A stretch of 64,000 nucleotides of DNA from Sedimentisphaera salicampi (GCF_002117005.1 NZ_CP021023.1:124001-188000); one strand, 5' to 3'; numbered from the stretch's first letter, positions 38,034 to 58,323 are shown. The notes: generated from the sequence alone by a model not told the origin. Numbers and translations are program-made.

Positions 38034-40172
38034 TTAGAATTTAATTACAGCAAGGCCTTCTTCAAGTATTTCCGCTCCGAATATGTTTGGAGCGAAGGTT
38101 TCGAAATTCAACTTGCCCATATTTATAAAATTCGAAGCTCCTTGGCGTACATTGGCAAACTTCACCTCGTGATATTCGCCCTTTAACTCTTCCACATAAA
38201 TCCTGATTTCCCTTGTTTTGGGGTTGTAGGGCTGAATGCGGCACTTGCTGATTCCCTTCATCCTGTGAACGTAGGGAACATCTATTTTTTTAAGCGGCAC
38301 TATAATAATCTCATTATTCTCTGAGAATTTGTTTCTTATCGGGCCTACCTTAATTTCGCCGTTTTCGAGATATTCAGCAGGAGCATTTCTTACCTGCCAT
38401 TTTAATCCTGTTTGTTTTATCGTCCACGTAAGTCTGTAATCTGCCGGAGTGGATACATTAACAGTTTCTCTTGCGTTTATGTTTTGTCCCAGTTTGAATT
38501 TTTTAATCTCCCCATTTTTTAACCCAGCCTTATAAGATCTGTCATTGATTCTTACCTTGAAATTGTCTCCCGGGTTGCCGACGGAGGCTTGTTCAACAGC
38601 AAATTTATAGACCTTTACGGGCATAGTATGTTCAGTGATTTTTGCCTCTACGGCGAGGTTGATCACATTCGAGGAATCATCATCGCCGTACATCCCGAAA
38701 CCTTTTAGGGAATCTGGTACTGTGAATATGCTTTTAATAATTGTTTTTCCGGTATCAATCGCTTTGGGTTTGACTTTTTTGGTATGGATGAGATTCCCAT
38801 TTGTGTCATAAATCCTGAAAATAAGCCCGCATTTCGCTCCGTATTTCTCAGCCTTCATCTCTGCAGAGGCCTTATAGGTTTGCCCGGGCATAATCTGATA
38901 ATATTCGTAATATGCGCCTCTTTTAGGGGAATGCAATGATCTTTTAGTTATGTTTTCTCCAAGAGGCAAAAGCTCTATTCCTTCTTCTATAAAACGTATC
39001 CCGTCAATTTCTCCTTCGACTGTCTTCTTCGGAGATATTGAGATTCCCGGTATTAACCGGCCTTTAGACCAGCCTTCTTTATTCTCTGATGTGATTGAAA
39101 GATTCTGGTTTTCATTGAATGCCCCGCCTTTGCAGGGAGCAAGGACTAATTGCTGCTCATTTTTTCCTGAGCCGATGTGATGCTGGAATGCTTCAACTTT
39201 CTGTCCGTCTCTTGAACAGCCCATTCCCCAGCTTACAGCCGCACTGGTCTCAGGATTGTAGGAAGTTTTAAGTTTCATTGTTTTTGTGAGGTGTTTGTAA
39301 CCGGGCTTTTCGTCGAAGAATTCTTTTGCGGTTGCGTCATAGGCTTTAACAGTGAAATGATTTTTGCCGATTTCAAAATAGATTCCGCCTATGTGGTGTC
39401 TGAAGTCTTTGTTGAAAGAAGGGGAGAAGCCGCCAATCCGGCCGTTGGAAACGTAGAATCTATCATTCTTTTCTACGAGCTCCCATGTGTGATTGTGCCC
39501 GTGCATCCACGCTATTACATTGGGGTAAGAGTCTAGCAGCTTCAAAACTTCATCGCTGTTGGCTACCATTCTGTATATCTTGCTGTCATGAGAAGATGTT
39601 GTATCTTTCAGAGAGTTGTGAGTGAAGATTACTGTTGTTTTGTCTTTATTCAGTTTGAGGTCTAATTTCAGCCACTCAATGCTCTCGTGAGTTACGAGGT
39701 TTGGGGTTATAAGTTGAGGAAGGCAGATAAAATGAATTCCCTGCAAATCGAAGCTGTAGTAAGGGCGGCATGTTATGCTCGAGAGTGCCATCGTTCTTTT
39801 TTCGCTGTCAACACCGTTGAAAGTTACGGTTTCGTGATTTCCCGCTGCAACGTGAAACGGCAGATAATTTGCTCCTCCCTGTATTATTTCCGTCCAGTCT
39901 GCACGAGCCCTATCGTCTGCGTCGCTGTGATGAATATCGCCTGTATCAATGAAAAGATCCAGATCAGGGAATCTATACATTATGTGTTTTACACCGTGGG
40001 CTATAGTTGAATTTGAAGGCTGAGCAGGGTGCTTCCAGCCGAAGTGGGAATCAGAAACAATAAAACACTTAAACGGTTTCTGATTTGAGCTCGCCTTCGA
40101 TATAGCCGGGCAGGCTAATGCAAATATTATCAGGATTGAAACTGCTGAAAATGCTGCACTTTTTCTTGTCAT
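38034..40172 (-). CDS. Exported calcineurin-like metallophosphoesterase (Sec-type paralogue)
   Basis: A 712-residue protein with a Sec signal (about 1-27, MTRKSAAFSAVSILIIFALA). The metallophosphoesterase domain (about 33-270) has all family motifs: SDSHFGW, DTGDIHH, AAGNHE, FTHNSL and MHGHNHTW, giving a dinuclear metal centre. About 440 residues of beta-rich sequence follow, probably substrate-binding domains. The full length is paralogous to the Tat-type enzyme at 60520-62766 (for example WQVRNAP and the following block). It is encoded 31 bp downstream of a GntR-type regulator gene on the same strand. It probably acts on an extracellular phosphoester of unknown identity. Confidence 0.82.
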   Translation of the reverse strand: MTRKSAAFSAVSILIIFALACPAISKASSNQKPFKCFIVSDSHFGWKHPAQPSNSTIAHGVKHIMYRFPDLDLFIDTGDIHHSDADDRARADWTEIIQGGANYLPFHVAAGNHETVTFNGVDSEKRTMALSSITCRPYYSFDLQGIHFICLPQLITPNLVTHESIEWLKLDLKLNKDKTTVIFTHNSLKDTTSSHDSKIYRMVANSDEVLKLLDSYPNVIAWMHGHNHTWELVEKNDRFYVSNGRIGGFSPSFNKDFRHHIGGIYFEIGKNHFTVKAYDATAKEFFDEKPGYKHLTKTMKLKTSYNPETSAAVSWGMGCSRDGQKVEAFQHHIGSGKNEQQLVLAPCKGGAFNENQNLSITSENKEGWSKGRLIPGISISPKKTVEGEIDGIRFIEEGIELLPLGENITKRSLHSPKRGAYYEYYQIMPGQTYKASAEMKAEKYGAKCGLIFRIYDTNGNLIHTKKVKPKAIDTGKTIIKSIFTVPDSLKGFGMYGDDDSSNVINLAVEAKITEHTMPVKVYKFAVEQASVGNPGDNFKVRINDRSYKAGLKNGEIKKFKLGQNINARETVNVSTPADYRLTWTIKQTGLKWQVRNAPAEYLENGEIKVGPIRNKFSENNEIIIVPLKKIDVPYVHRMKGISKCRIQPYNPKTREIRIYVEELKGEYHEVKFANVRQGASNFINMGKLNFETFAPNIFGAEILEEGLAVIKF

Positions 40173-40203
40173 CGCTTGATCTCCTTAAAAATATAAAATA
40201 TTC

Positions 40204-41352
40204 TTATTTTCTCAGGCTGCTTTCTCTTACTATCAGGTTTACCGGAAGGACTCTGTGGATGGGCTTAGGCAATATGCCGAGCATTTTTTCGTAGAGGATT
40301 TTGGCAGATTCGTATCCAACTTTTTCAAGGTTCTGATCAACGCTTGTAAGCGGTACTGAGAGCCTTTGGGCAAAAGGAAGGTTGCTTATCCCTGCAATAA
40401 ACACATCTTCGGCGATTTTAAGACCGAATTTTTCGCAGGCATAGTAAACCCCTCTAGCCACATAGTCGTTGCCCGCAAATATTGAATATTTTTCTTCTTT
40501 GATATTCATGAAAAAGTTTTTGGCGTTTTCAATATGGCTCTTGTTGTAATCGTCGGAGTGAGTGGCAAGTTCTGTTTCAGATGAGCCCACCTTGAAGAGG
40601 TATTTCTCTGTCTCTGTGTAGTTGAATTCGTTCATGGCGGTTCTCCACCCTTTAACCCATTGCCTGCAAGAGCTTGGCTCATCAATCGTTCCAATATGGT
40701 AAACAGGCAGGCCCTGTTCCTGGAGAAGGTGCTTTGTGGCCTGATAAGCTGCAGAGTAGTGATCTGAACAAACAGAGCAGGCTTCAATGCCCTCAATGAT
40801 TCTGTCTATAAAAACTGCTTCAATGCCTGAGTTTATCGCATCTAACACAGCCTGACGGCATTTCGGCATTTCATACGGGATTATCAGCAGACCGTTAATA
40901 TCGTTGCCCGAGTGTTTTATTGAGTCTATGAATTTTTCGTAGTCGTTGTCTGCGTCAGAAATTATGCAGTCAATATTGTTTTGTTCTGCAAATTCATTTA
41001 TCCCCTTGGATATGGAAACTGAGAAGGGGTCGGCAAACATCCGTATGAAAGAAATGCTGGTGATTTTATCATTTCCCGCTCTATGGCCGGAATTTTTTAT
41101 AACCACCGGCTTTTTGTTCGGGATGCATTTGATAAGCCCTTCCTTTTCCAGCAGTTTGAGGGCATTGTTAATTGTCCTGTAGTTTACATTAAACTGCTCG
41201 GCCAGCGAAGATTTCCCCGGGAGGTTGGCCCCGGGCTGTAAATCTCCAGACTCAATCATTGTTGAAAGGTGCCTCCTGATCTGCTCATACAGAGGCTGCT
41301 CTTTTTTAGGAGTTCTAGTTATGGGCTGCTGAGGATTAAGGTTTTCGTCCAT
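40204..41352 (-). CDS. GntR/LacI-type hybrid transcriptional regulator (AraR-like)
   Basis: A 382-residue regulator. A GntR-type winged helix-turn-helix (about 18-88: PLYEQIRRHLSTMIESGDL, SLAEQFNVNYRTINNALKLL) precedes a periplasmic-binding-protein-like sensor domain (about 95-382) of the LacI/GalR type, as in AraR. It most likely senses a sugar or sugar derivative. It is divergent from the HAD-GH38 operon and upstream of the metallophosphoesterase gene, so both are candidate targets. No clear Shine-Dalgarno precedes the ATG. Confidence 0.88.
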   Translation of the reverse strand: MDENLNPQQPITRTPKKEQPLYEQIRRHLSTMIESGDLQPGANLPGKSSLAEQFNVNYRTINNALKLLEKEGLIKCIPNKKPVVIKNSGHRAGNDKITSISFIRMFADPFSVSISKGINEFAEQNNIDCIISDADNDYEKFIDSIKHSGNDINGLLIIPYEMPKCRQAVLDAINSGIEAVFIDRIIEGIEACSVCSDHYSAAYQATKHLLQEQGLPVYHIGTIDEPSSCRQWVKGWRTAMNEFNYTETEKYLFKVGSSETELATHSDDYNKSHIENAKNFFMNIKEEKYSIFAGNDYVARGVYYACEKFGLKIAEDVFIAGISNLPFAQRLSVPLTSVDQNLEKVGYESAKILYEKMLGILPKPIHRVLPVNLIVRESSLRK

Positions 41353-41628
41353 AAAATATACTGTTTATAAATTAAATAATTTTTGCTTTTAGATAATCTT
41401 ATGATAGTAGAATATACAAAGTAATCAAGAAAATAATGCAAAAAAAGTGCAAACAATTTATGTTTAGGTTGTGCTGTTTTCAAGGATTAGCTGCTTTATG
41501 TAGATTATGTGAGATTTTTCTGCTTAGATTTGCAATTTATTTGTATTTCTTCCTTGTTTTTTAAATACTTTTTTTGTAATATTATTTTTACTAACATTAG
41601 AATAAGTTTTTAACTACGGAGATATTCT
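41353..41628. promoter_or_regulatory. AT-rich divergent promoter region of the HAD-GH38 operon and the GntR gene
   Basis: 276 bp separate two divergent starts. The sequence is very AT-rich and includes repeated TGCAAA-type words (around 41437-41457), which could be regulator-binding half-sites. I could not place -35/-10 boxes with confidence. There is no gene in it. Confidence 0.5.
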
Positions 41629-42621
41629 GTGCGAGAATTTAATGAGATTGTAATTCCTGATTTGGGCAGTTTCGGCAAAGACAGCGGCCTGCAGAAGCTT
41701 GATATTTGTTCCGCCGGCAGGTTTGCTGTCGGCTCGAACGGTGTGCAGACGATTGCTGCCACTGGAGATGGTAAAGTCGAATTCATTGCCTTTGAAAACA
41801 AATCAATAGCATTTGTTAGATCTTCAATGGGCTATCCTGCGTATTATCCGGTAGAACCGGCAGGCATTGATAAGCCATTGAAAGCAGTGCTTATGGACTT
41901 GGACGGGACGAGCGTTAGGAGTGAATCGTTTTGGATTTGGATAATTCAACAAACCACCGCAAGCCTTCTTGGAAACCCTAATTTTGAGCTAGAAGATGAG
42001 GATTTGCCCTATGTCTCCGGCCACAGTGTCTCGGAACATTTGAAATACTGCGTAAATAAATACTGTCCGGATAAAAGCGTAGAGCAGGCGAGGGAGTTTT
42101 ATTTCAAGCATACACACGAAGAGATGGAGCTCATTGTTCAGGGAAGGGGCAGAAAAGATGCATTTACGCCATCTCCCGGTATTAAAGAATTCCTGCTGAA
42201 GCTCAAAGAGGCCAACCTGAAAATCGGTCTGGTAACATCAGGTCTATACGAAAAGGCATGGCCGGAGATTCTATCGGCTTTCAGGCAGCTTGATATGCCG
42301 GACCCCAAAAACTTCTACGACGCAATTATCACTGCTGGCTTCCCGCTCAGAAAAGGCTCTGCAGGAACACTCGGAGAACTTTCGCCAAAGCCTCACCCAT
42401 GGCTTTATGCGGAAGTTGCAAGAGTAGGGTTGGGGCTGGAGCCCTCGGAAAGACGAAGCGTAATTGGAATAGAAGATTCTGGTGCCGGCGTTTGCTCTAT
42501 AAGGCTGGCAGGTTTCGCTGCTTTCGGCCTAGCAGATGGAAATATAATTGAAAGCGGAACAAAAGCTCTTTGCGAGCATTACTGCGATAATTTTGAAGAA
42601 ATTGAAAGTTTGATTTTATAA
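41629..42621 (+). CDS. HAD-superfamily phosphatase (beta-phosphoglucomutase-like) with N-terminal extension
   Basis: A 330-residue protein starting at GTG, with GGAGA six bases upstream. The first ~83 residues are an extension I do not recognise. The HAD domain follows with motif I MDLDGTSVRSE, motif II LVTSGL, motif III Lys in LSPKPHPW and motif IV GIEDSGAG, and an alpha-helical cap between motifs I and II. This layout fits phosphosugar phosphatases or beta-phosphoglucomutases. It is the first gene of a four-gene operon with 10-30 bp spacing. Confidence 0.85.
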   Translation: MREFNEIVIPDLGSFGKDSGLQKLDICSAGRFAVGSNGVQTIAATGDGKVEFIAFENKSIAFVRSSMGYPAYYPVEPAGIDKPLKAVLMDLDGTSVRSESFWIWIIQQTTASLLGNPNFELEDEDLPYVSGHSVSEHLKYCVNKYCPDKSVEQAREFYFKHTHEEMELIVQGRGRKDAFTPSPGIKEFLLKLKEANLKIGLVTSGLYEKAWPEILSAFRQLDMPDPKNFYDAIITAGFPLRKGSAGTLGELSPKPHPWLYAEVARVGLGLEPSERRSVIGIEDSGAGVCSIRLAGFAAFGLADGNIIESGTKALCEHYCDNFEEIESLIL

Positions 42622-42632
42622 GAGGTTTTTTT

Positions 42633-45488
42633 ATGTCTGACAAAAATTACAAAATGCATGTGATCAGCGGCACCCACTGGGACAGAGAATGGAGGCACAC
42701 TTCAGAGCAGTCCAAGCCCAGGCTGGTAGAGCTCGTTGATACGATGATGGATGTGCTTGAGAAAAATGAAGATTACAAGGCATTTTGTCTTGACGGCGGA
42801 ATGGTCGTGCTGGAAGATTATTTTACTGTTCGACCGGAAAATTACGACCGGCTCTCAAAGCTCATAAAAGATGGAAGAGTTCAGCTGGTAAACTGGTACA
42901 CGCTCCCGGAAACATTTACAGTTGCACCTGAAGCCCTTATCAGGAATATACAGAAGGGACAGCAGATGGCTGATGAATTTGGCGGAGCTATTGATTCGGG
43001 CTACACAGCCACAGGGTACGGCCAAACTTCTCAGCTGCCTCAGATCTACAAGGGGTTTGATATAAACAGCGCTATCTTCTACCGCGGAACAACAAAGCAT
43101 ACATTAGAGCCTCTTTTTGAGTGGGAAGGTAAAGACGGCACCAAGATTTACACCCTCAGGGCTTTTGATGAGGTTACTCGAACCAACTGGTTCTTCTACG
43201 TCCATCAGCCTTTGGTTACAGGCAAGCCTCCTCGAACTCTCGGCTATGAGTACAATCCTGAGCACATACCATCACATATGTGCGATCAGGAATATTATGT
43301 TAGAGCAATAAAACTTCTTAGAGAAGAATACGCATACAACAAAGATCCCGAGGCCCTTAAAAAGGCTTTGGAAGACATAAAGGAGCAGGCTGCACCTTAC
43401 GTTATAGGCAATCATTATCTGGCAATGAACCTTGAGGATAACGATGTGCCTTTCCCGCTTCTGCCTGAGATGATCAAAGATCTCAACGAGGTTTCTGATG
43501 ATATTGAAATTGTACAGGACACCTTGGATGAGTATATGGAGAATATTATAGAGGAGTCTAAGCAGAGAAATCTGCCAGTTCATCAGGGAGAGCTCAGATA
43601 TACAGCAGTTGAGCCGGGCTTTAACGGCCTGCTTGGAGCTACTCACTCCTCAAGAATGAAGCTCAAGATTAAGAATGAAGAAGTGGAAACAAAGCTTCTA
43701 TACCACGCAGAGCCGCTTGCATCAGTGTTTTATATGATGGGCGGGGAATACCCCCAGCAGATTATGAAAAGGGCATGGAGACATCTGCTCTTAAACCACG
43801 CTCACGACAGCATCTGCGGGGCAGCAGTGGATCAGGCTCATGAGGATATGATGTACAATTTCTCGGTTGCTCAAACCGTAGCCGAGGAGATTACCTCAAG
43901 AAGTGTCGAGGAGATTTACAAAAAGATTGATACTGTTTCTGATTTCCAGCAGGATGATCATACAATCGTTTTGTTTAATAATCTTCCGTTTGCAAGAAAG
44001 AAAGTTGTTCAGCTCGTCATTGATCTGCCCAAGTTCAAAACAGGCGGAGATATGGTTGACCCCTGCAGCGGCATAGGAGCAGAGGAAGACGATAGGGAAA
44101 TAGACTTCTTCGATATCGTTGACAGCAGCGGCAATAAAATTGATTACACCGTCATCAGCAAAGATGACATCAAGATGGCCATAGACCGCAAAATGGACAC
44201 TTCAGGAATTAAGAGCTCTTTTATTAGAAGAAGGATTCTTCTGCACGCTGAGGTCCCTGCAATGGGATATGCTGCCTATGCTTTAAGACCTCGAGAAAGA
44301 GAATATGCGCCTCATCCACAGATTGGCGAAGACAGAAAGCTTTTGGCAAGGGATGGAATACTCGAAAACGAAAACATTAAAGTTCAGGTTAATTCCAACG
44401 GTACTTTCTCAATGCTCGATAAGAAAACCGGACATAAGATGGATAACCTGCATTACTTCACTGATAACGGTGAAGTTGGGAGTGCTCATTTAAGCAGCGT
44501 TCCACAGAGGGGTTCTGTGCAGACCAGTCTTGGAGAGCCCTGTAGAATATCTATATCAGAATCAAATGGACTGAGGGGCGTAATCTGCATTGAAACTCAG
44601 ATTACAATTCCAGCAGGAGCTACTGCCCCTGGGGACGATCGCCTGACCGAGCAGAGCGTGGTTCCTATCACAACATGGCTTACGCTTGAGAAGGAAAGTG
44701 AATATCTAAAGATAAAAACAAAGCTGACTAACAACGCACGGGACCACAGATTGCGTGTGAATTTCCCAACTAACATCTATACCGACTATGCTGATGTTGA
44801 GAATGCATTTGCTGTTGACAAGAGAACGATAAAATGGGAAGACACCAAAGAAAACTGGGAAGGATTCTATCCGTTCAATCCGATGCAGAATTTCGTTGAT
44901 GTAAGCGATGGAAAAATCGGACTTGCTGTTCTCAACAAGGGTATCAGGGAGTATGAAGTTAAAGACGACCCCCAGAGAACCGTGGCGATTACCCTCCTGA
45001 GAACACACCGAGCATATATGACCGCAAATTCCGATATGACGCCTGAAGAGCTCGAAAAGCACCGCGGGCAGCATTCACTTGGCACACTTGAGTATGAGTA
45101 TGCCCTCTTCCCGCACAAGGGAGACTGGCACTCGGCCAATGTTTTACAGAAGGCATACGACCACAAAGTACAGACAATTGCAATCCATGCACTGCCGTAT
45201 TCAACAGGAGAGCTTCCTTCTTGCAAGAGCTTCTTTGAGATTACTCCTTCAGATAGGATTATGGTTTCCGCACTCACTCAGTCTTCAGATGGCAAAGCTG
45301 TCCTGCTGAGGGTTTGGAACAGCTCTGATGAAAAGGCAGATGTGCAAATTAAAACCCCGTTCTCAGATTTCAAAGCCTCAAGAGTGCAGCTTAATGAGAA
45401 GCATATTGAAGAAATCAAAAATTCCGGCGGTACTGTTAAATTTGAAATACGTCCGCACGGAATAGAAACACTGCGTTTTGAAAAATAA
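42633..45488 (+). CDS. GH38-like (alpha-mannosidase family) protein with altered nucleophile site
   Basis: A 951-residue protein with the full plan of bacterial GH38: the catalytic barrel begins SGTHWDREW (His and Asp metal ligands kept), the helical part has LNHAHDSICGAAVDQ (another metal-ligand His kept), and a long beta-rich C-terminal region follows. GH38 enzymes hydrolyse alpha-mannosides with a retained Asp nucleophile that is also a zinc ligand, in P-D-(S/T)-F-G-H. Here the aligned stretch reads ATGYGQTSQLPQI, so the Asp is Thr. It has no signal peptide and is predicted cytoplasmic. Activity as a normal mannosidase is therefore doubtful. Confidence 0.85.
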   Translation: MSDKNYKMHVISGTHWDREWRHTSEQSKPRLVELVDTMMDVLEKNEDYKAFCLDGGMVVLEDYFTVRPENYDRLSKLIKDGRVQLVNWYTLPETFTVAPEALIRNIQKGQQMADEFGGAIDSGYTATGYGQTSQLPQIYKGFDINSAIFYRGTTKHTLEPLFEWEGKDGTKIYTLRAFDEVTRTNWFFYVHQPLVTGKPPRTLGYEYNPEHIPSHMCDQEYYVRAIKLLREEYAYNKDPEALKKALEDIKEQAAPYVIGNHYLAMNLEDNDVPFPLLPEMIKDLNEVSDDIEIVQDTLDEYMENIIEESKQRNLPVHQGELRYTAVEPGFNGLLGATHSSRMKLKIKNEEVETKLLYHAEPLASVFYMMGGEYPQQIMKRAWRHLLLNHAHDSICGAAVDQAHEDMMYNFSVAQTVAEEITSRSVEEIYKKIDTVSDFQQDDHTIVLFNNLPFARKKVVQLVIDLPKFKTGGDMVDPCSGIGAEEDDREIDFFDIVDSSGNKIDYTVISKDDIKMAIDRKMDTSGIKSSFIRRRILLHAEVPAMGYAAYALRPREREYAPHPQIGEDRKLLARDGILENENIKVQVNSNGTFSMLDKKTGHKMDNLHYFTDNGEVGSAHLSSVPQRGSVQTSLGEPCRISISESNGLRGVICIETQITIPAGATAPGDDRLTEQSVVPITTWLTLEKESEYLKIKTKLTNNARDHRLRVNFPTNIYTDYADVENAFAVDKRTIKWEDTKENWEGFYPFNPMQNFVDVSDGKIGLAVLNKGIREYEVKDDPQRTVAITLLRTHRAYMTANSDMTPEELEKHRGQHSLGTLEYEYALFPHKGDWHSANVLQKAYDHKVQTIAIHALPYSTGELPSCKSFFEITPSDRIMVSALTQSSDGKAVLLRVWNSSDEKADVQIKTPFSDFKASRVQLNEKHIEEIKNSGGTVKFEIRPHGIETLRFEK

Positions 45489-45517
45489 GCTCAACTTAAA
45501 GTTTTCAGGTGTTGATT

Positions 45518-46582
45518 ATGGCTTTTGAACCGGACTACAGAAATATCTTATCGGCAGGCAGTAACTTGCGTTCAGAGAGACTTGCTCTTTACGAGCATAT
45601 TATAACCCCTGGGTTTATGGAGAAAGTGCTTGATGAAAAATTTGCAGATTTAGAGTATTCTTCAGGAAATGACCTTGATGAATTTTTTAACAAGTTCTGC
45701 GGTTTCTTCAAAAAGTTGACTTATGATACAGTATCTTACGAGGTGAGTATCGTTCAGTCTCTCCCGCATGCGGGAGATTCGCTTATGGGCAAGAAACCTG
45801 GCCCTATACAGACTGACCAGGATTTCGATCATTTTCAGTGGAATGAAATAACAGAAGAATTCAAATGCAAAGCAGCTCCGTTGTTTGAGGCTTTGGGGAA
45901 TAATATGCCGTCTGGAATGAAGGCTGTTGGAGGCCCGGGCAACGGGGTATTCGAAATAGCCCAAGATCTTGTCGGCATGGAATACCTTGCTTATATGCAG
46001 TATGACAACCCTGAGCTGTATGCGAAAATCTTCAGCAGAATTGGTAATTTGATGTGCGAGATTTGGGATTGGTTCCTGAAAAACTATTCAGCTCCTTTCT
46101 GTCTGTGCCGTATCGGAGACGACCTCGGCTACAAAAGCGGAACTCTCATCTCCCCGCAGAATATCAGAGAACATATTGTTCCTCAGTACGCCAAGATTAT
46201 TCAAAAGGTGCATAATGCAGGCTTCAAATTCCTCTTGCACAGCTGCGGGAATATATTTGAAGTTATGAATGATTTTATCAGCATTGGGATTGATGCAAAA
46301 CATTCCAATGAAGACGTTATAGCTCCATACGAGAAGTGGATAGAGCTTTATTCAGACCGAATTGGCCTTTTTGGCGGAATTGATGCTGATTTCCTTTACA
46401 GCTCCAAAGACCCGAATAAGGTATTCGAGCACGTATATCATAAGGGGGCTGAATTCAGGGATTCTGCTAACGGATTCGCTCTTGGTTCGGGAAATTCAAT
46501 ACCGGATTACGTTTTGCCGGATAGCTATCTGGCAATGGTAGAAGCAGCGCAAAAAATAAGGGAAAACGAAAAATCTTTTTAA
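45518..46582 (+). CDS. Uroporphyrinogen decarboxylase/MtaA-superfamily protein
   Basis: A 354-residue TIM-barrel protein of the UroD/cobamide methyltransferase superfamily. The ATG at 45518 is chosen over an upstream in-frame GTG because of the AGGTG site before it. The motif LHSCGN gives the His-x-Cys zinc pair of MtaA/MtbA-type methyltransferases, but the third ligand region reads GSGNSIP, with Asn where a Cys is usual. Superfamily members either decarboxylate porphyrins or move methyl groups to corrinoids or thiols. In this sugar-linked operon heme synthesis is unlikely, and demethylation of a methylated sugar is one possibility. Confidence 0.8.
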   Translation: MAFEPDYRNILSAGSNLRSERLALYEHIITPGFMEKVLDEKFADLEYSSGNDLDEFFNKFCGFFKKLTYDTVSYEVSIVQSLPHAGDSLMGKKPGPIQTDQDFDHFQWNEITEEFKCKAAPLFEALGNNMPSGMKAVGGPGNGVFEIAQDLVGMEYLAYMQYDNPELYAKIFSRIGNLMCEIWDWFLKNYSAPFCLCRIGDDLGYKSGTLISPQNIREHIVPQYAKIIQKVHNAGFKFLLHSCGNIFEVMNDFISIGIDAKHSNEDVIAPYEKWIELYSDRIGLFGGIDADFLYSSKDPNKVFEHVYHKGAEFRDSANGFALGSGNSIPDYVLPDSYLAMVEAAQKIRENEKSF

Positions 46583-46592
46583 GGGGAAAATT

Positions 46593-48431
46593 ATGAACAG
46601 TGTCATTAGAAAAACTGCATTCGTAAATTTGCTGATTTTGTTTACCTGCGGATTGGTATTCGCAGATAAAGCGGTTGATAACCGATGGTGGCCAGTGCAA
46701 AAGGCACCGAAGAAAATATTGAAAACTTCACTGGCCGAAGCGAGCCCCACTTATCCTGAAGCCGAGAATTATATAATCAAATATTCTCCCGTGCATATGA
46801 TGCTTCAGTCTCTTTCCGGCCTGACCGCTAAAGCCGTGAATGAAGGCAGCTTTGATGAGATGGTTTGGATAGACCTGCTGCCCAACTGGCGTCATCAGGA
46901 TGACTACAGATACTGGTATAAGAAAGCCTTGCAGAGGCTGGAGGTAAAAGTAAAAGGGCATTACACCCCTTTCGAACTCCTTGAATATCTAAAGGACAAG
47001 GGGGTGTATAAAGGTTATGTCCTCTACTCTATTGACCAATCTGAAGGCCCGTTCGTCGGTTCAAGGCCATGGATGGACAGCTCAGCCAACGCTGCTACTG
47101 TCGCAGCGGGAATTCTGGACGGAGTTCTGATATCTGAAGAGCTTGAGCCAAGGGCAAAGAAGCTCGGCCTCAAGAAGCTCCTTGATGTTCGAGGAAAGGA
47201 TGAATCCTGGGCGTTTCTGGAATACAAAGAAAGGCTAAACAGAAACTATGCATTAGCCCAAGACCCAAAAATGCCCCGCCAGAGGGCGCTTGCAATAGCA
47301 AACAAAATGATGGTCTTTTATGAAATGGATGAACCAGCTGATTCTGTTTATGAGTGGCTGAATCCGCTCTCAAGCATTATTGGTTACAACGGTACCCACG
47401 AAGGACAGTTTATCGAGCAGCTTTCAAGATACGGCCACATCCTTCCTGCCAGCAACTGGTGTATGAACCTCCCGATACTGTCAGCTGAAACGGAAGATTG
47501 CGAGCCGGTAAAATTCGAAGCTATGGATTTGGCTGAGTTCAAGAAAAACTATGATCCTGCTTCGAATGCGGTTTCTTTCATTATGAGCGACGGCGACAAT
47601 GTACAGTGGCTCATGGGGGATTTCTGTTTTAACAAGTTTTACTGGGCAAGCCCTGATCATGGGGATTTCCCGTTCGGCTGGGGACTTCCTTTTGCCGGTT
47701 TGGATCAAGTTTGCACGGAGACAATGCAGTATCTGAAAGAAACTCAGCCAAAAGACTGCACATTGAACCTGCATGCAGGCGGATACTATATGCCGGATGT
47801 ATTCGGAGTTCGCTACAGTGATAAGGAAAGGATCGCTCTGCTAAGAAAACACGCAAAAAGGCTGAATTATTATATGAAGCGCAACAACTCCAGGACGCTT
47901 CAGTTTATCTGCGATGATATAGACGGTAAAAATGCAATGGAGGCTTACAAAGTTTTTGCCGAAGAGATTGAACAGCTCGCAGGAATATTTGTGCTTCAGT
48001 ATGCCCCTTACACCGCTGAGGAAGGTAAGATTATGTGGGTTAGAAGCTCGAGCGGAGTTCAGATTCCAGTGATAAACTGCAAGTATACAATTTGGGCCAA
48101 CTACAATCAGCCTGACGGCGGAACCCCCTCCGAGGTGGCTCAAATGATAAACAAGGACGCTGATAAAATGTGCGATTCTGATGATCCGTACTTTGCCTGG
48201 ACTATAATCCATGCATGGTCGGGTTTCAAAAAAGCTAACGGGGAAATCAAAAGCACAGCGTTTGAGGCCGACGGAAGCTGGGCCGGGGTTACACCTACGA
48301 AGTGGTGCGTTGATGAACTTGACAGAGATGTGAATGTGGTTTCTCCCGAGGAGCTTTTGTGGAGGATTCGTATGAATCATAACCCAGCACAGACAAAAGA
48401 AGTTATTGATGAACTAACCGGAAACCAATAA
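46593..48431 (+). CDS. Exported GxGYxYP-family putative glycoside hydrolase (paralogue 1)
   Basis: A 612-residue protein with an N-terminal signal (about 1-24). The bulk resembles the GxGYxYP family, a putative carbohydrate-active group known only from sequence. Shared landmarks with the paralogue at 56059-58323 include FIMSDGDNVQW, GDFPFGWGLP, IIHAWSGF and VVSPEELLWRI. The family-naming motif is degenerate here (HAGGYYMPD, 47772-47798). It is the last gene of the HAD/GH38/UroD-like operon, 10 bp after the previous stop. It has no dockerin-like tail. Confidence 0.75.
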   Translation: MNSVIRKTAFVNLLILFTCGLVFADKAVDNRWWPVQKAPKKILKTSLAEASPTYPEAENYIIKYSPVHMMLQSLSGLTAKAVNEGSFDEMVWIDLLPNWRHQDDYRYWYKKALQRLEVKVKGHYTPFELLEYLKDKGVYKGYVLYSIDQSEGPFVGSRPWMDSSANAATVAAGILDGVLISEELEPRAKKLGLKKLLDVRGKDESWAFLEYKERLNRNYALAQDPKMPRQRALAIANKMMVFYEMDEPADSVYEWLNPLSSIIGYNGTHEGQFIEQLSRYGHILPASNWCMNLPILSAETEDCEPVKFEAMDLAEFKKNYDPASNAVSFIMSDGDNVQWLMGDFCFNKFYWASPDHGDFPFGWGLPFAGLDQVCTETMQYLKETQPKDCTLNLHAGGYYMPDVFGVRYSDKERIALLRKHAKRLNYYMKRNNSRTLQFICDDIDGKNAMEAYKVFAEEIEQLAGIFVLQYAPYTAEEGKIMWVRSSSGVQIPVINCKYTIWANYNQPDGGTPSEVAQMINKDADKMCDSDDPYFAWTIIHAWSGFKKANGEIKSTAFEADGSWAGVTPTKWCVDELDRDVNVVSPEELLWRIRMNHNPAQTKEVIDELTGNQ

Positions 48432-48493
48432 ACAACTTTCAAATAAGTCAAATGTTTATTATACCGCGAGAAAAGTTCATAACAGCCTTGAGC

Positions 48494-48518
48494 AGGGGGT
48501 CTTCAAAGAAGGCTCCCT
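48494..48518. terminator. Hairpin between convergent genes
   Basis: AGGGGGTCTTC and GAAGGCTCCCT form an 11-bp stem (two G-T pairs) around an AAA loop, between the stops of the GxGYxYP gene and the second GntR-type regulator. There is no clean T-run, so termination is possible but not certain. Confidence 0.4.
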
Positions 48519-48541
48519 CGCTTGAAATCCGCTTTTCTTGC

Positions 48542-49723
48542 TTATTGTGGAAGTATGTTTCTAAGACCGCCGCAGGATTTGCGAACAATAAGCTGGGTAG
48601 ATATCAGGATAGTTTTAGGAGGCTGGTCAGGATTGTTTATCCTTGAAAGAAGTGTTTCTATTGCATTTTCAGCTATCTGAATTGTCGGCTGCCGCATCGT
48701 TGTAAGCGGTACAGACATAAACGCTGCAAAAGATTCATCATCAAACCCTACAACCGATATATCCTCGGGAACTTTCATTTTAAGATCTTTCCTTATTATC
48801 TGGATAACCTCAGCTGCCATTCTGTCGTGCATACATACAAGGGCATCCGGTTCGTGCTCCTGCACCACTTCAATAATGTTTTCTTTTTTGAACGTATGTT
48901 CTATGTCCGATAGAGGATTAGCTTCAAATTTGAATACCTTGCAGCCCTCTTTGCTGGAAAGCTGTTTTACAGCATTTTTGTAACCGGTAATCTTGTCCTT
49001 TGTGGACGAGCATCTTATTTTGTCAGAGAGGAATAAGATCCTTTCCCTGCCGGTTTCGATTAAATGTTCTGTAACCTCATAGCCGGCGTCGGTGTGGTAA
49101 GAACTGACCAAATCATATTTACTTCTTTTAGGACCTTCGTATATATCTCTGTCAAGCAGGGCTACTGCAATGCCGGCATTTTTGAATTTTTCTGCAATTT
49201 CAATATTTACATTCTGATTGTCTTCAAGGATTGGAAGCGGGAAAAGAAGAACTCCGTCAACATTTCTTTCGATTAAAGAGTCGCAGATTTTTATTGTGTT
49301 TTTTACAAGCTCTTGGTTGGTCTGGGCTATCAAATTATTGTAAACAACATAGCAGTCTCGGTTAGTTGCAACGTGAGACATCTCTGCTAATACATTGTCA
49401 AAAAGCGAGCTCATATTGCCAAATTGGCTCGATTTGAAAGACACCCTCGGCATTACTACACCAACGCTGCAGCTGTCTTTTTGATTATTTATGTTCGGCT
49501 TTACATAAGTACCTGAACCCTGCCTTCTTTCAATAATCCCCCTTTTAACTAGTCTCTGCAGCGCTTTGCCTACGGTCGGACGAGACACCCCGAAGTGCCT
49601 GGAAAGTTCTTGCTCTGTAGGGATCTTATTTTCTGGAAGATAGTCCCCGGCAATTATGCTTGCATAAAGCCTGTCATAAATCTGAGTATGTTTGGCGTTG
49701 TTATTTGTAGTATCTGTTTTCAT
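48542..49723 (-). CDS. GntR/LacI-type hybrid transcriptional regulator
   Basis: A 393-residue regulator from the ATG at 49723; an in-frame TTG at 49762 would add 13 residues. The N-terminal GntR-type winged helix (IYDRLYASIIAGDYLPENKI, ELSRHFGVSRPTVGKALQRL, RQGSGTYV) is followed by a LacI/GalR-type sensor domain (about 85-390, with VGFDDESFAAFMSVPLTTM). It is divergent from the metallophosphoesterase gene at 49900 and shares with it a short promoter region containing an inverted repeat, which suggests autoregulation and control of the plus-strand genes. The ligand is probably a sugar. Confidence 0.88.
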   Translation of the reverse strand: MKTDTTNNNAKHTQIYDRLYASIIAGDYLPENKIPTEQELSRHFGVSRPTVGKALQRLVKRGIIERRQGSGTYVKPNINNQKDSCSVGVVMPRVSFKSSQFGNMSSLFDNVLAEMSHVATNRDCYVVYNNLIAQTNQELVKNTIKICDSLIERNVDGVLLFPLPILEDNQNVNIEIAEKFKNAGIAVALLDRDIYEGPKRSKYDLVSSYHTDAGYEVTEHLIETGRERILFLSDKIRCSSTKDKITGYKNAVKQLSSKEGCKVFKFEANPLSDIEHTFKKENIIEVVQEHEPDALVCMHDRMAAEVIQIIRKDLKMKVPEDISVVGFDDESFAAFMSVPLTTMRQPTIQIAENAIETLLSRINNPDQPPKTILISTQLIVRKSCGGLRNILPQ

Positions 49724-49790
49724 TTTTTTTAAGCTTAATCTGTTTTTTGTTTTTTGCAACAATAAACAAACTACAAAAAAAATGCAAATT

Positions 49791-49857
49791 TGTCAATAGC
49801 AATATTTACAAAATATGAAATTTGTTATTGACACGGCTTTATAAAATGTTAAATTAT
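49791..49857 (+). promoter_or_regulatory. Divergent promoters with inverted-repeat operator candidate
   Basis: An inverted repeat of 11-base arms (49792-49802 and 49822-49832, one mismatch) separated by 19 bases carries a TTGACA at each outer edge: 49828-49833 for the plus strand and its mirror at 49791-49796 for the minus strand. For the plus strand AATTAT at 49852-49857 sits 18 bp downstream as a possible -10. The minus-strand -10 is weak. A protein bound at the repeat would control both directions. Confidence 0.55.
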
Positions 49858-49899
49858 CAGTATGATTACAGGAAACTCATAACATTTTAAGGAGCTTTA

Positions 49900-51708
49900 A
49901 TGAAAAGACGTGATTTTCTTAAGTCTATTGGTGCTGCAGAGCTTGGCCTTGGGTTAGCTCCGAGCCTGTTTGCTGCTCATGCAGATTTTTCTGAGAGCTG
50001 CGAAGTCAATTTTCAGAAGATGAAAAATTGCGGCGATAAATTTTCGTTCGCAATTTTTGCTGACCCTCAGGTAGGCACTATGAACTCAAATTCAAGGGTT
50101 GCAAAGAATGCCCGCCGCTTTCAGATTGAATCAGTCAAAGAAATCAACTCATTTTCTCCTAAGCCTCAGTTCGCTCTTTTTCTTGGCGATCTTGTAAACG
50201 TCCCCAATGATGCCTCATTTAAAAACTTTGTTGACTGCATCAAACACTGCGAACCTGAAGTGCTTTTAGTTCACGGAAACCACGATACACGCCCGCCTTA
50301 CACAAAGTACAAGGAAATGCAGAAGCGGGTGAACGGAATGCAGAGAACATACTATTCATATGATGTCGGCAGCTGGCATTTCATTGTAACTCCGTGTAAT
50401 CTCAATGGCGCATCTGAGATTGAAATCGAAACCGAGAAGAATATGCTCAGCTGGCTTGAGGCAGACCTTGAGAAAAACAAAAACCGCCCAACTATCTTTT
50501 TCAATCATCTACCCCTTATGCCTATAGGCCTCTCTCAGCTTGAATGGTATGTGTTCAGGCTTGAGATTCGAAAGAAAATGGTTGATTTAATCACAAAGCA
50601 CGGCAACGTTAAGTATTTCTTCAACGGCCATGTGCACAACGGTATCAAGGCCTCTGTCAAAACGAGCTGGGAATATAAGGGAACAAAATTTGTAAATGTT
50701 CCCACGATTATAGAAGGAAGGAATTTCGGCGAAGAATACGATCGCTACGAACACGGCCTGCCTACAGGCGGCTACTATATGATGGTTCATGTTGATGGTG
50801 AAGACGTTTCTCTGGAAGGTCGGCTGACAGGAGTCGAAAAAGGATACCATTATCCAAACGATTTCAAGGAATTTTCAGAAGATATCGAGCCGCGGTGGTT
50901 CACCAAGGCGATTGATTTAAAGCCGAACACGAAATTGGTTAACGGCTCTTTTGAAGAGGGGTTGAAGGGCTGGTATCAGACCTACAGGTATATATCCGAC
51001 AAAGACCCTATGTTCAAAACAGAAGTCAAAAGCGATATAAGCACAGCTGGCAAGAAAAGCGTCTATGTTCATACAATTCCAAAGGGCAGGATCTTCTGGG
51101 CAAACGACGATAACAATTCAATCTACCAGATGGTATCATCGCCAGGGGACAGCCCGATTCTAAAAGCGAAATATTTCACCAAAGAGCGTCCTGCAAATGC
51201 CGGCGGTTTTATCCGCTTCAATGCAGTTGCTGAAGACGGTTTTAAGTTTTTGATGATGTTCCACTGGGGCAGCAATCAGTACAGGGCAGATTATCTGCCC
51301 AGATGCATTGGATATGAGATTCACGGCAAACAGCAGAACTGGGCGTTTCTCCAGCAGATTGCGCTGAAGAATCAGGGCTTTTTCTGGAAAATCAGCGATG
51401 ACCCTGATAAGTGGCATACTCTTCAGGTGAATATACCCGATTTGTATGACAAGGCAGTCAGCAAGCAGGGGGCGTACAGTAAGCTGGGGATATCTAAATT
51501 CTATATTCAGCTTGGCGCCTGGACAAACAGAGAATTGGATTCCGGAAGCGTTGTGCGTTTCGATGATGTAGAGCTCTTCTCTAAAGAAAATGTTAAATCT
51601 AAAGTTGATAACGAAAACCTCGCCGTAAGCGAATGGGTTCATCTCACAGAGTTCGGCCAGAGGCTTATCAACCGCACAGGAGTACCGGAACTTAACAGAC
51701 TGAAGTAG
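49900..51708 (+). CDS. Tat-exported metallophosphoesterase with C-terminal binding domain
   Basis: A 602-residue protein with AAGGAG before the ATG and a twin-arginine signal (MKRRDFLKSIGAAELGLG). The phosphoesterase domain (about 45-310) has motifs ADPQVGT (Gln where His is more common), LGDLVN, VHGNHD, FNHLPL and FNGHVHNG. The C-terminal ~270 residues include a jelly-roll-like domain starting NGSFEEGLKGWYQTY, typical of carbohydrate-binding modules. It is only distantly related to the other two metallophosphoesterases here. It is divergent from the adjacent GntR-type regulator, its probable controller. Confidence 0.82.
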   Translation: MKRRDFLKSIGAAELGLGLAPSLFAAHADFSESCEVNFQKMKNCGDKFSFAIFADPQVGTMNSNSRVAKNARRFQIESVKEINSFSPKPQFALFLGDLVNVPNDASFKNFVDCIKHCEPEVLLVHGNHDTRPPYTKYKEMQKRVNGMQRTYYSYDVGSWHFIVTPCNLNGASEIEIETEKNMLSWLEADLEKNKNRPTIFFNHLPLMPIGLSQLEWYVFRLEIRKKMVDLITKHGNVKYFFNGHVHNGIKASVKTSWEYKGTKFVNVPTIIEGRNFGEEYDRYEHGLPTGGYYMMVHVDGEDVSLEGRLTGVEKGYHYPNDFKEFSEDIEPRWFTKAIDLKPNTKLVNGSFEEGLKGWYQTYRYISDKDPMFKTEVKSDISTAGKKSVYVHTIPKGRIFWANDDNNSIYQMVSSPGDSPILKAKYFTKERPANAGGFIRFNAVAEDGFKFLMMFHWGSNQYRADYLPRCIGYEIHGKQQNWAFLQQIALKNQGFFWKISDDPDKWHTLQVNIPDLYDKAVSKQGAYSKLGISKFYIQLGAWTNRELDSGSVVRFDDVELFSKENVKSKVDNENLAVSEWVHLTEFGQRLINRTGVPELNRLK

Positions 51709-51776
51709 TTAAAACATCTTTTTTAGCTAAAAGTTGTTATGTATAAATTTAAGGTTTATTTAAAAGAGGTAATGGA

Positions 51777-54032: not shown

Positions 54033-54054
54033 TTAATTTGCCCTGAAAATATTA

Positions 54055-54085
54055 TCCGGCTGGGCATGCGGTATGCCCGGCCGGA
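54055..54085 (+). terminator. Strong hairpin between CBM protein and pseudopilin genes
   Basis: TCCGGCTGGGCAT pairs with ATGCCCGGCCGGA (13 bp with one T-G pair) around GCGGT, followed by TATCTTCCTTT. It may terminate or attenuate transcription before the two pseudopilin-like genes, or protect the 3' end of the upstream message. Confidence 0.65.
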
Positions 54086-54109
54086 TATCTTCCTTTGAGA
54101 GGTGCTGAT

Positions 54110-55003
54110 ATGAAAAATAAAAACGGATTTACTTTAATTGAGCTTTTGGTTGTTATATCAATCATTGCTCTGCTTATGTCGATTCTTATGCCTGCCCTGG
54201 GAAGGGCAAGGGCTCAGGCTCGAGTAACTGTATGCGCCAGCAGACAGAAACAAAACGTTTACGGCGCCACGATGGCAGCCAAGGATAATAACGAAAAACT
54301 CCCCAGAGGCGGTTTTAATTTCGGCGGGCATAATTTTGATGACGCTATTTCATTTAGAGCGGAAGAATATATCAATCTTACAAGCTATGTTACAGACCTT
54401 GGTGTGAGCATAGACCCCTCACGCGAGGTTGACCCAGAGATACTTGCCCAGGCAGCCAAGCAGGTTCTTACAAGCAGCGCGAGGCTGAACTTTGTCTGTC
54501 CGGAGATGGAAAATGATGTAATAGACCTTGAGGAAAGAGGTATGAGAAGCATTATAAGAGGCCAGAAGACTGCCAAAAAACCATTTATTCACAAGTACGG
54601 CGGAGCAGGCTGGACAGCCAGAATCGGCTATTCATACGTAGCCGGATTCGATACACTTGAATGGGAAGAATGGCCGGACGAAGGCGAAAAATGGCGTTCC
54701 CCAATGAAAACTACTGACAAAGGCTCTCTTACTGTTATTGCAGACAGGTATCGCTACGTGCCGGACTTTGGGTACTTTGTTTTCGTTCACGGAGACAGCG
54801 GCTCAGGACAGGAGTTTGTAGGTAAAGGCCTTACTCCTGAGAAAGCTGCTGAAAAGGGCGGCGGCGGAAACTGCGTTACTAACGTTGGTCGTCTCGACGG
54901 ATCTGTAACAAAAGACAAGGTTACCAATCTGCCCGGAAGACACGTTACGCAAAAAGATAATAAAATGTGGAGCCACACAAGCGCCGATTTTTGCTACTTT
55001 TAA
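54110..55003 (+). CDS. Type II secretion/type IV pilin-like protein (pseudopilin paralogue 1)
   Basis: A 297-residue protein with a class III (prepilin) signal: after MKNKNG, the peptidase site precedes [20 protein letters not shown], with Glu at position +5. The ATG at 54110 is preferred over an upstream in-frame start because it puts the short basic leader directly before the cleavage site. The C-terminal part is long for a pilin and ends with [12 protein letters not shown], a phrase typical of planctomycete prepilin-like proteins. It would be processed by a prepilin peptidase encoded elsewhere. A close paralogue follows 18 bp downstream. Confidence 0.82.
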   Translation: MKNKNGFTLIELLVVISIIALLMSILMPALGRARAQARVTVCASRQKQNVYGATMAAKDNNEKLPRGGFNFGGHNFDDAISFRAEEYINLTSYVTDLGVSIDPSREVDPEILAQAAKQVLTSSARLNFVCPEMENDVIDLEERGMRSIIRGQKTAKKPFIHKYGGAGWTARIGYSYVAGFDTLEWEEWPDEGEKWRSPMKTTDKGSLTVIADRYRYVPDFGYFVFVHGDSGSGQEFVGKGLTPEKAAEKGGGGNCVTNVGRLDGSVTKDKVTNLPGRHVTQKDNKMWSHTSADFCYF

Positions 55004-55021
55004 TAACTTTAGGATTTAACT

Positions 55022-55921: not shown

Positions 55922-55970
55922 TATTCGAACGTAATGAAAATGTTTAATTGCGCAGGTGCAATATAACGAC

Positions 55971-56008: not shown

Positions 56009-56058
56009 AGCTTACGCCAAATGAATTGGCAATAATTTATTTAATACAAGGCGGCTTT

Positions 56059-58323
56059 ATGAAGATATCAGTTCAGCTTTTAATTTTATTCTCTCTTATG
56101 TTTCCTGTCTCAGCATTTTCCAGCGTATATAATGAAAACAATAATTTAGTGAATAACCCCTACGGCGAGGCCGGCTGGCAGAACTGGTACCGAAGCCAGA
56201 ATGCAGAAATAGCAGATATATCGGCCGGAGCGGGAGAGAAAAGTTTCAAACTCCAGCCAGTATCAGGAACACACAGTGATATTCGTTCTGTCAAGCTGGT
56301 AGGCGAACCGAACCAGAAACTGAAATTCAAATATTCATTCAAGTCTGAGCCGGGTTCTTCTATTGAACAGGGAAGCAGTTATGCGCAGGTTAGATTCTTG
56401 GACAGCAGCGGCTCAGTGCTCAATGCTGCAAGTTATGAGCTTGTATTGACTTCCGGACAGTGGATTGATTATACGCATGAAGGTATTGTTGTTCCCAATG
56501 GAACAGTGAATCTGGATGTCCGCTTTATAACAGGGGCATTCCAGAAAAATTCTCAGGGCGAATTTTTCGTCGATGATATTTACCTCTACCAGGAGCTGCC
56601 GAAATTCAGCTCATGCGATAATTATCCAGATCAGCTCTATGTTATAAGCAAGGGTTCTATGAACGAGGAGGAAAAGGTTTTGATCCAAAGCCTTCAGGGA
56701 CTGCTCGCTCAAGACAAGCCGGAAATCTACATTGATATGGGCAATGACGATTATCTCAACGATTTACAAGCAAACCACGGTGTGAATTATACGAGGGTTG
56801 ACAGCCTCTTCTGGTATATGAATAACTACAGCAGTGATCTGTCCGGATACATACTTGCAGACCTTGATGAACCGCAGTCTATGACAGCAGCCGTCTCAAT
56901 ATCAGGGATTATGAATGCCGTTATTGTTGATGATTCGCTCGAAAGCTGGGTTCAGAGCTTCGGGCTTTCCAAACTCGCCGATACGAGGGGTAAAGACTGC
57001 CGTTGGGCTTATGAAAACTACTGGGACCAGCTCAATAAAAACGGTATTGTTGTAAAATCTCCAGACAGAAATGAAGTAGCGTGGGCATATAATTCAATAG
57101 ACTGGTACATCGCCCAGAAACTGCTTTGGTGGTGGGATGAGAGCGAATCGCTTTCTTCGCAGGTGTATGAATCTGTCATAGACAGCTCATACTGCTACGG
57201 CTGGAACGACCCGGCAGCAGGCGGGGAGCTTGATACAGTAAGCTTTCACAGCCAGTTCAGCCTTTATACAGGGGCAGGTACTTCAGCTATGAATAAATCT
57301 ACTCTGGCGGGCATGGCAAATAAATACCCTGATAAGCAGTACAGCCAGCCGATCTCCAATGAAGATTTCACCACTGAATCTGGCGTTCATTATGTAGCCT
57401 TCAATATGAGCGATATGGACAATTTCGGTGTGCATCTCAATCATTACGGATGGCATACAAAACAAGACTACTACGACAACCCTCGACGCGGAGATTTTGC
57501 AATGGGCTGGGGAATTCCGCCTTCATATTTGGAGCTTGCCCCCACAGTCCTTGAATACTGGTACAGAAATGCTACTGCTAATGACAGTTTTATTGTTCCG
57601 GGGGCGGGATTGGGATATATCTATCCTACGTTAACTCCTGAGCTGTACAAAAACACAAGGAAAATGGGGCAGCTTATGGAGAGAGCTGATATGCATAACG
57701 TTATGATCCTTGATAAACTGTGGCCTGAGCCTCTAACTGAAGCCGATTATTACCCTACAGCCCATTACTATACAAGGCTTGATGCCGTTAAAGGGCTCTT
57801 TTATGTGGATGTTGCAGGCGATTATGCGCGATATGGAAGAGAGGCCGATGACGGCAACGCTCAAAGGATATACTGGTTCGACGGCAAGCCCATGATACCC
57901 TGCAGATATACGCTCTGGGATGGAGGCCAGTATGATGGAATAAGCAAAAACGCAAATCAGCTCGCAGCCTCTATAAACGCTTCGCCTGCCGATCCATCAA
58001 ACCCGGACAGCTACACTTTTGTTGTAGTGCATGCTTGGTCTTACGGGCTTGATGAGGTGTACAATACAATCCAGCAGCTTGATTCGGATGTGCGGGTTGT
58101 TACGCCTGAAGAGCTTATCGAACAGGTTTATATGAATCTTTCGCCCTGCGGCGAGGTGCCAAAGAAGGCAGACTTGAATCAGGATTGCGAAGTCGACCTT
58201 GCCGACTACTCTCTGCTTTCAAAAACTTGGCTTGATGCAGGTATGGGGACAACTGACCTTACAAGCGATGATAAGATGGATCTTGATGATTTGATATATT
58301 TCCAAGATTCATGGCTCGATTAA
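56059..58323 (+). CDS. Exported GxGYxYP-family putative glycoside hydrolase with CBM and dockerin-like repeats (paralogue 2)
   Basis: A 754-residue protein. The ATG at 56059 follows AAGGCGG and starts the signal peptide (MKISVQLLILFSLMFPVSAF); the frame is open further upstream without one. A CBM-like jelly roll (about 25-180) precedes the GxGYxYP N- and C-domains (about 190-690), which contain the exact family motif GAGLGYIYP (57601-57627). The tail has two calcium-loop units, DLNQDCEVDLADY and DLTSDDKMDLDDL, each followed by W, making it the only protein here with a full two-repeat dockerin-like end. The family is thought to act on carbohydrates; the reaction is not established. Confidence 0.82.
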   Translation: MKISVQLLILFSLMFPVSAFSSVYNENNNLVNNPYGEAGWQNWYRSQNAEIADISAGAGEKSFKLQPVSGTHSDIRSVKLVGEPNQKLKFKYSFKSEPGSSIEQGSSYAQVRFLDSSGSVLNAASYELVLTSGQWIDYTHEGIVVPNGTVNLDVRFITGAFQKNSQGEFFVDDIYLYQELPKFSSCDNYPDQLYVISKGSMNEEEKVLIQSLQGLLAQDKPEIYIDMGNDDYLNDLQANHGVNYTRVDSLFWYMNNYSSDLSGYILADLDEPQSMTAAVSISGIMNAVIVDDSLESWVQSFGLSKLADTRGKDCRWAYENYWDQLNKNGIVVKSPDRNEVAWAYNSIDWYIAQKLLWWWDESESLSSQVYESVIDSSYCYGWNDPAAGGELDTVSFHSQFSLYTGAGTSAMNKSTLAGMANKYPDKQYSQPISNEDFTTESGVHYVAFNMSDMDNFGVHLNHYGWHTKQDYYDNPRRGDFAMGWGIPPSYLELAPTVLEYWYRNATANDSFIVPGAGLGYIYPTLTPELYKNTRKMGQLMERADMHNVMILDKLWPEPLTEADYYPTAHYYTRLDAVKGLFYVDVAGDYARYGREADDGNAQRIYWFDGKPMIPCRYTLWDGGQYDGISKNANQLAASINASPADPSNPDSYTFVVVHAWSYGLDEVYNTIQQLDSDVRVVTPEELIEQVYMNLSPCGEVPKKADLNQDCEVDLADYSLLSKTWLDAGMGTTDLTSDDKMDLDDLIYFQDSWLD

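Follow-up and report, generated by a model that had tools for sequence, protein, structure and literature searches.

The genome of Sedimentisphaera salicampi was analyzed over a stretch of 64,000 nucleotides (the window, positions 124001-188000 of the 3.19-Mb single-contig genome, NZ_CP021023.1) that contains a run of four genes encoding, in this order, a HAD-superfamily protein, a GH38-fold protein devoid of its catalytic nucleophile, a UroD/MtaA-superfamily protein and a GxGYxYP-family protein. An earlier reading of the sequence (the original prediction) had described them as a candidate uncharacterized glycan-processing system under two sugar-sensing-type regulators. An open reading frame check found every gene of the run and both regulators where they had been predicted. 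The four genes are co-directional and, in agreement with the short spacing claimed, separated by only 11, 20 and 10 bp, and their Pfam domains are HAD_2, GH38 N/mid/C/C2, URO-D and GxGYxYP N2/N3/C. Both regulators, one divergent (276 bp from the run) and the other convergent (110 bp), do combine a GntR helix-turn-helix with a LacI-type sensor domain. The cluster is laid out as follows (positions are counted from the first nucleotide of the window):

40204..41352, minus strand: divergent regulator, GntR helix-turn-helix and LacI-type sugar sensor, family c28 (Pfam and clustering)
41353..41628, no strand: divergent intergenic region of 276 bp, presumed promoter/operator
41629..42621, plus strand: HAD-superfamily phosphatase/mutase-like protein (Pfam, alignment, AlphaFold2, fold search)
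42633..45488, plus strand: full-length GH38-fold protein without catalytic nucleophile (Pfam, alignment, AlphaFold2, fold search)
45509..46582, plus strand: UroD/MtaA-superfamily protein, H-x-C present, third MtaA zinc cysteine replaced (Pfam, alignment)
46593..48431, plus strand: GxGYxYP-family protein, signal-peptide-like N terminus (Pfam, alignment)
48542..49762, minus strand: convergent regulator, GntR helix-turn-helix and LacI-type sensor (Pfam)

What stands out most in the cluster is the GH38 subfamily without a nucleophile, together with the HAD that accompanies it. The window protein has the five-domain GH38 fold according to Pfam (GH38N, mid, C and C2), its AlphaFold2 model (predicted local distance difference test [pLDDT] of 88) and a fold search, in which 845 residues were aligned to 5kbp (Z of 43.6, root mean square deviation of 2.8). 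Judging from this confident full-length model, the protein is not decayed. Its best named family match was NCBIfam PRK09819 (MngB), at 432 bits and below the cut-off of 1138. In SpGH38, zinc is bound by His13, Asp15, Asp125 and His351, with Asp125 acting also as the nucleophile and Asp232 as the acid/base (PMC2815779). The equivalent positions in the alignment are H15, D17, T127, H391 and D269. The altered active site that had been suspected thus consists in the replacement of Asp125 by Thr127, while the acid/base and the remaining zinc ligands are intact. The same holds for the whole subfamily: in 57 aligned homologues lacking the Asp, the D125 column contains F (37), T (19) or S (1), while H15, D17, H391 and D392 are invariant in all the homologues covering each column and D269 is found in 57/57. 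Two arginines are also nearly invariant, R183 (57/57) and R322 (55/57); the canonical 3lvt sequence has T in place of the latter, and for R183 no alignment to canonical GH38 was possible. Since retaining double displacement needs Asp125, its loss together with an intact metal site and acid points to a changed mechanism rather than to decay. From this pattern of residues, the Asp-less subfamily should be metal enzymes incapable of the retaining mechanism, and our best guess is a single displacement by water or phosphate. Mechanisms have diverged before inside one GH family, as in GH97 (PMC2670981), and GH130 offers the precedent of a phosphorylase/hydrolase switch via basic versus carboxylic residues (PMC4599007). 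One of the loci compared (L154:3730-11917; L- and G-numbers designate loci and genomes compared, respectively) contains a HAD gene, then two GH38-like genes in tandem, neither of which has the nucleophile, and a PfkB-type kinase.

The HAD protein consists of an extra N-terminal beta region of 80 amino acids and a beta-phosphoglucomutase (beta-PGM)/CbbY-like HAD domain (residues 81 to 330). Its AlphaFold2 model (pLDDT 90) matched beta-PGM/CbbY-like structures with Z of about 20, all three PDB sequences matched by the HAD profile are named beta-phosphoglucomutase, and the catalytic motifs D90-L-D92-G-T and E282-D283-S are retained in the alignment. A clear assignment as beta-phosphoglucomutase was nevertheless rejected, and mutase activity is doubtful, because the position of the cap-domain Arg49 is occupied by an invariant Val134 in the alignment; the score against NCBIfam TIGR01990 was 32.8 bits, below the cut-off of 189.4. 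The N-terminal extension (residues 1 to 80, 41629-41868) is beta rich and strongly conserved (GVxxIxATGDxKVEFI...AYVxSAMGYPAYYPV), and lies outside every listed PDB match. In four Chloroflexota loci (L103, L131, L091 and L151), the HAD gene is found without GH38 near a galactokinase (tested in L103) or a class II aldolase. At two other loci (L067:10943-15323 and L070:8827-13207), it has upstream or downstream of it an exported protein and a protein of ca. 845 amino acids that appears by eye to be a GH95-type glycosidase, so GH38 may not be the only kind of glycosidase with which the HAD pairs.

To evaluate the conservation of the cluster, we compared it with 78 related genomes and with HAD relatives retrieved by an alignment scan of 84,980 species genomes. 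In the first set, counting the window's own genome, the HAD was found in 15 genomes (identity of 61 to 72% to that of the window) and the GH38 homologue in 19. The order HAD-GH38-sodium:solute symporter (SSS) was frequent (L057, L058, L063, L064, L066 and L069), and the closest locus (L068, G042:C102) has an orthologue of the c28 regulator divergent to GH38-HAD-GxGYxYP, with an SSS nearby and no such UroD. The scan gave 433 relatives, of which the best 80 loci (65 to 73% identity, mostly metagenome bins) were analyzed. They belong to Planctomycetota, Bacillota, Chloroflexota, Hydrogenedentota, Lentisphaerota, Kiritimatiellota, Sumerlaeota, Verrucomicrobiota, Neomarinimicrobiota, Nitrospirota, Fibrobacterota and Calditrichota. 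A GH38 homologue was present in 45 of these 80 loci, mostly directly adjacent, and an SSS in 9 to 10; planctomycete loci often include one. All full-length adjacent HAD-GH38 pairs (32/32) are on the same strand, with gaps of 9 to 262 bp, and the distance matrices of the two proteins over these pairs are correlated (Mantel r of 0.74, reached in 0/2000 permutations). Because GH38 genes are so few among the thousands of genes in a genome, we estimate that chance adjacency would be below ca. 1%; the grouping of HAD and GH38 is beyond chance. The HAD tree follows phylum largely, although extra changes are needed (8 for Planctomycetota, of which well-supported branches require 3 or more), which is compatible with some horizontal spread without proving it. 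In L162, the gene immediately upstream of GH38-HAD belongs to GH92, an alpha-mannosidase family, in keeping with a mannose-type substrate. The role originally suggested, the breakdown of a phosphorylated and/or O-methylated mannose-type glycan, is partly supported; no sign of a phosphorylated or O-methylated glycan was found. HAD-GH38 loci exist also in the named strains Pontiella sulfatireligans F21 and Ruminiclostridium cellobioparum subsp. termitidis CT1112, where they are directly testable.

The GxGYxYP protein scored 103 bits against Pfam GxGYxYP_C (cut-off, 27), with a signature reading AGGYYMP. In the alignment, the putative catalytic Glu272, Asp331, Asp333 and Asn334 of BT2193 correspond to E270, D333, D335 and N336. 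Its association is with one GH38 subtype, that of the window, with the motif GYTATSYGQ or near, common to the clostridial GH38 proteins beside GxGYxYP: a GxGYxYP gene adjoins 5/18 loci of this subtype (a lower bound, since some contigs are short) versus 0/37 of the other (Fisher p of 0.0025). HAD, this GH38 subtype and GxGYxYP occur together in one planctomycete (G042) and three Clostridia (G464, G465 and G469), and in the order of G464 loci with the window subtype appear in only 2/295 genomes. The arrangement varies in Clostridia, from GH38-HAD-GxGYxYP in one direction (L141) to GxGYxYP divergent from GH38-HAD (L150/L198 and L168/L199); the copy adjoining GH38 in L150 has no evident signal peptide. 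Clostridial GH38-HAD clusters also hold sugar ABC-transporter genes and further GxGYxYP genes, with LacI, a solute-binding protein, permease-sized genes and GxGYxYP adjoining GH38-HAD in L198/L199, and solute-binding proteins, a permease and GxGYxYP in L141/L200. Upstream of the one-directional clostridial run are a DUF5696 protein (L141:2714-5209), for which no function was found in the open-access literature searched, and an NHL/TPR/Yip1 protein (L141:610-2700). In Caldithrix abyssi and in mannan polysaccharide utilization loci (PULs), GH38 and GH92 genes are reported near GxGYxYP (PMC4071793). The family is abundant: there are nine matches in the window's 3.2-Mb genome (G000:C1, at 181385, 849878, 847010, 398687, 1962659, 212985, 171571, 1082629 and 1091924), and 19 in ca. 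1.9 Mb of the clostridial genome G460.

The UroD-like gene is the least constant partner of the cluster. UroD-family genes of three subgroups were found near GH38 or HAD in a minority of loci (L060, L072, L076, L080, L085, L099, L128, L132 and L143), and members of the window's own subgroup adjoined a gene of the GH38 family in L076 and L080 alone; UroD-family genes are abundant in the relatives. The zinc motif of MtaA has three ligands, H-x-C ... C. Across the window's subfamily, H-S-C is retained and the third Cys is replaced (GSGNSIP), leaving two of the three ligands, and there is no corrinoid protein within the cluster, with two candidate B12-binding_2 proteins elsewhere in the genome. 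The missing third ligand weakens an MtaA-type demethylase role and, with the missing Arg49 of the HAD, leaves the suggested phospho-/methyl-mannan substrate partly supported; given the two candidate corrinoid proteins, methyl transfer may still occur.

Further genes of the window were considered as neighbors of the cluster:

38034..40172, minus strand: exported calcineurin-like metallophosphoesterase, family c17 (Pfam Metallophos 1.1e-07 and clustering)
49900..51708, plus strand: exported metallophosphoesterase (Pfam)
56026..58323, plus strand: protein of 765 amino acids, the second GxGYxYP-family member in the window
60520..62766, plus strand: third exported metallophosphoesterase, family c17

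The three exported-type metallophosphoesterases announced by the original prediction are thus present, all within ca. 13 kb of the cluster. A c17 member also faces the GH38 orthologue in G002 (L072) in convergent orientation, and metallophosphoesterases recur only occasionally elsewhere (L063, L064, L072 and L154). When the divergent intergenic region of the window was compared with that of L068, they shared a 9-mer only, with no convincing palindrome as operator, and the promoter/terminator scan remained at chance level. No SusC/SusD families, the pair that marks a Bacteroidota-type PUL, were detected among the annotated proteins at 38034-54032. The region 51777-64000 carries an exported CBM/LamG-like run, pseudopilin-like proteins (54095 and 55022), the second GxGYxYP and a metallophosphoesterase, and is possibly a second glycan-related island.

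With moderate confidence, we interpret the locus as an accessory, sugar-responsive catabolic cluster assembled round a cross-phylum core of HAD and nucleophile-less GH38. What is observed is the order of the genes, their co-occurrence and a GH38 site that has lost the Asp but retains its other metal and acid residues. The core, found in many bacterial phyla, suggests that mannose-like sugars are cut or handled in a manner not described before. An oligosaccharide or glycoside would enter via an SSS or a CUT1-type ABC transporter, as found in relatives, and the cytosolic GH38-fold zinc enzyme could bind its mannose-like cis-2,3-diol by the metal and cleave or transform it by a non-retaining route, with D269 as proton donor to the leaving group while water or phosphate attacks directly from the space left by the Asp. 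The cytosolic HAD would act on a phosphorylated sugar within this pathway, while GxGYxYP, the UroD-like protein and outer enzymes (sulfatases, GH92 and metallophosphoesterases) might adapt the core to particular glycans, and both LacI-sensor regulators would answer to the released sugar.

The exact four-gene order was seen neither in the 78 relatives nor in the 80 further loci; judged by the refuting condition given with the original prediction, the four genes were put together locally round a conserved core and are not a conserved four-gene system. Several observations weigh against the interpretation as a catabolic cluster round this core. The distribution is sporadic (8/392 genomes of the phylum), and in ca. 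35 of the 80 loci, some on short contigs, the HAD has no detected GH38. The neighbors that it sometimes has there (galactokinase, PfkB, glycerate kinase, class II aldolase, GH1 and GH42) indicate that it may have a wider role in sugar-phosphate metabolism, probably as a general enzyme for sugar phosphates in pathways of this type. Moreover, the Asp-containing comparators were five sequences, from other GH38 branches only, there is no transporter in the window's cluster, and for GxGYxYP proteins of mannan PULs no catalytic activity had so far been found, according to a personal communication in a study of 2014 (PMC4071793). What is left of the proposed glycan-processing system is a regulated cluster of sugar-catabolism type. 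Its families recur together in genomes that are not related: the HAD-GH38 pair very frequently, GxGYxYP within Planctomycetota and Clostridia, and UroD-family genes in a minority.

An ordinary mosaic of common planctomycete glycan families in a fortuitous order could also explain the locus, but appears somewhat unlikely. The uniqueness of the four-gene order, the numbers of GxGYxYP and UroD-family genes and a genome of the same genus (G001), in which none of the four genes was detected at the thresholds used, are in its favor, but it does not account for the adjacency and co-variation of HAD and GH38 across phyla or for the HAD-GH38-GxGYxYP association in G042, G464, G465 and G469. Concerning the chemistry, an inverting or metal-hydroxide hydrolase is comparably doubtful. 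Here the anomeric carbon would be attacked by water bound to zinc or held by arginine, and the HAD would act on a phosphosugar that either accompanies the substrate or arises later through a kinase. Every zinc ligand but the Asp is intact, as is the acid/base, and GH92 and GH47 include inverting, metal-dependent alpha-mannosidases (both families are discussed, and GH92 is called inverting, in PMC2815779); however, no conserved general base was identified, and the HAD partnership is left without a direct explanation. That HAD-linked Asp-less GH38 proteins form a new catalytic class, either phosphate-dependent inverting mannoside phosphorylases or enzymes with other metal-assisted non-retaining chemistry, in a HAD-paired cassette found in about a dozen phyla, is a tentative proposal that we consider rather unlikely. 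A phosphorylase in particular, with arginine-held phosphate in the vacated space making an inverting attack to give a beta-sugar-1-phosphate that the HAD converts or dephosphorylates (as in maltose phosphorylase with beta-PGM), seems unlikely: the never-acidic D125 column, R183 and R322, the beta-PGM-like fold of the partner and the GH130 and GH97 precedents would all suit it, but Val134 makes the mutase step questionable. Finally, a catalytically dead sugar sensor, binding protein or scaffold is improbable. The missing nucleophile, with a bulky Phe in most members, would allow it, but without catalysis it is difficult to see why 57 divergent homologues of many phyla should all have kept three zinc ligands and the acid/base Asp.

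Should the Asp-less members of GH38 in this cross-phylum core prove active, a second mechanism has been hidden in a well-studied family, and many genes of gut Clostridia and sediment Planctomycetota that would be annotated as "alpha-mannosidase" or "mannosylglycerate hydrolase" bear the wrong name. The conserved HAD and GxGYxYP partners also provide a small cross-phylum set in which the long-sought GxGYxYP reaction could be tested alongside candidate substrates.

In the open-access literature searched (preprints and most subscription journals lay outside the search), there was no described pathway with the four families, as had been stated originally, and no description of Asp-less GH38, of GH38 with HAD or of UroD in glycan clusters. 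The closest known systems share parts of the cluster. Like the GH38 alpha-mannosidases (SpGH38 [2wyh], E. faecalis [5kbp/3lvt] and dGMII), the HAD-linked subfamily has the full-length fold, three of the four zinc ligands and the acid/base Asp, the Asp352 equivalent is kept and that of Arg149 mostly kept, but T, F or S replaces throughout the Asp that is nucleophile and fourth zinc ligand, and R183 and R322 are nearly invariant. MngB, the mannosylglycerate hydrolase, is a GH38 enzyme of a phosphosugar pathway; unlike it, the window protein has no nucleophile and stays below the family cut-off, and no phosphotransferase system genes were found among the annotated neighbors of the cluster. The beta-PGM/CbbY-like HAD proteins share the core fold and the DxDGT and E-D-S motifs, but not the Val in place of Arg49 or the N-terminal beta region of ca. 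80 residues. With the GxGYxYP family (BT2193, 3sgg; PMC4071793), the window member has in common the barrel domain and the putative catalytic E/D/D and N, but is linked to an Asp-less GH38 and a HAD. We know of no GH38 phosphorylase. Operons of glycoside phosphorylase and beta-PGM are known for the GH65 type, and the core described here is similar to them in that a nucleophile-free glycosidase relative stands beside a HAD of beta-PGM fold, to which the relatives add a sugar transporter.

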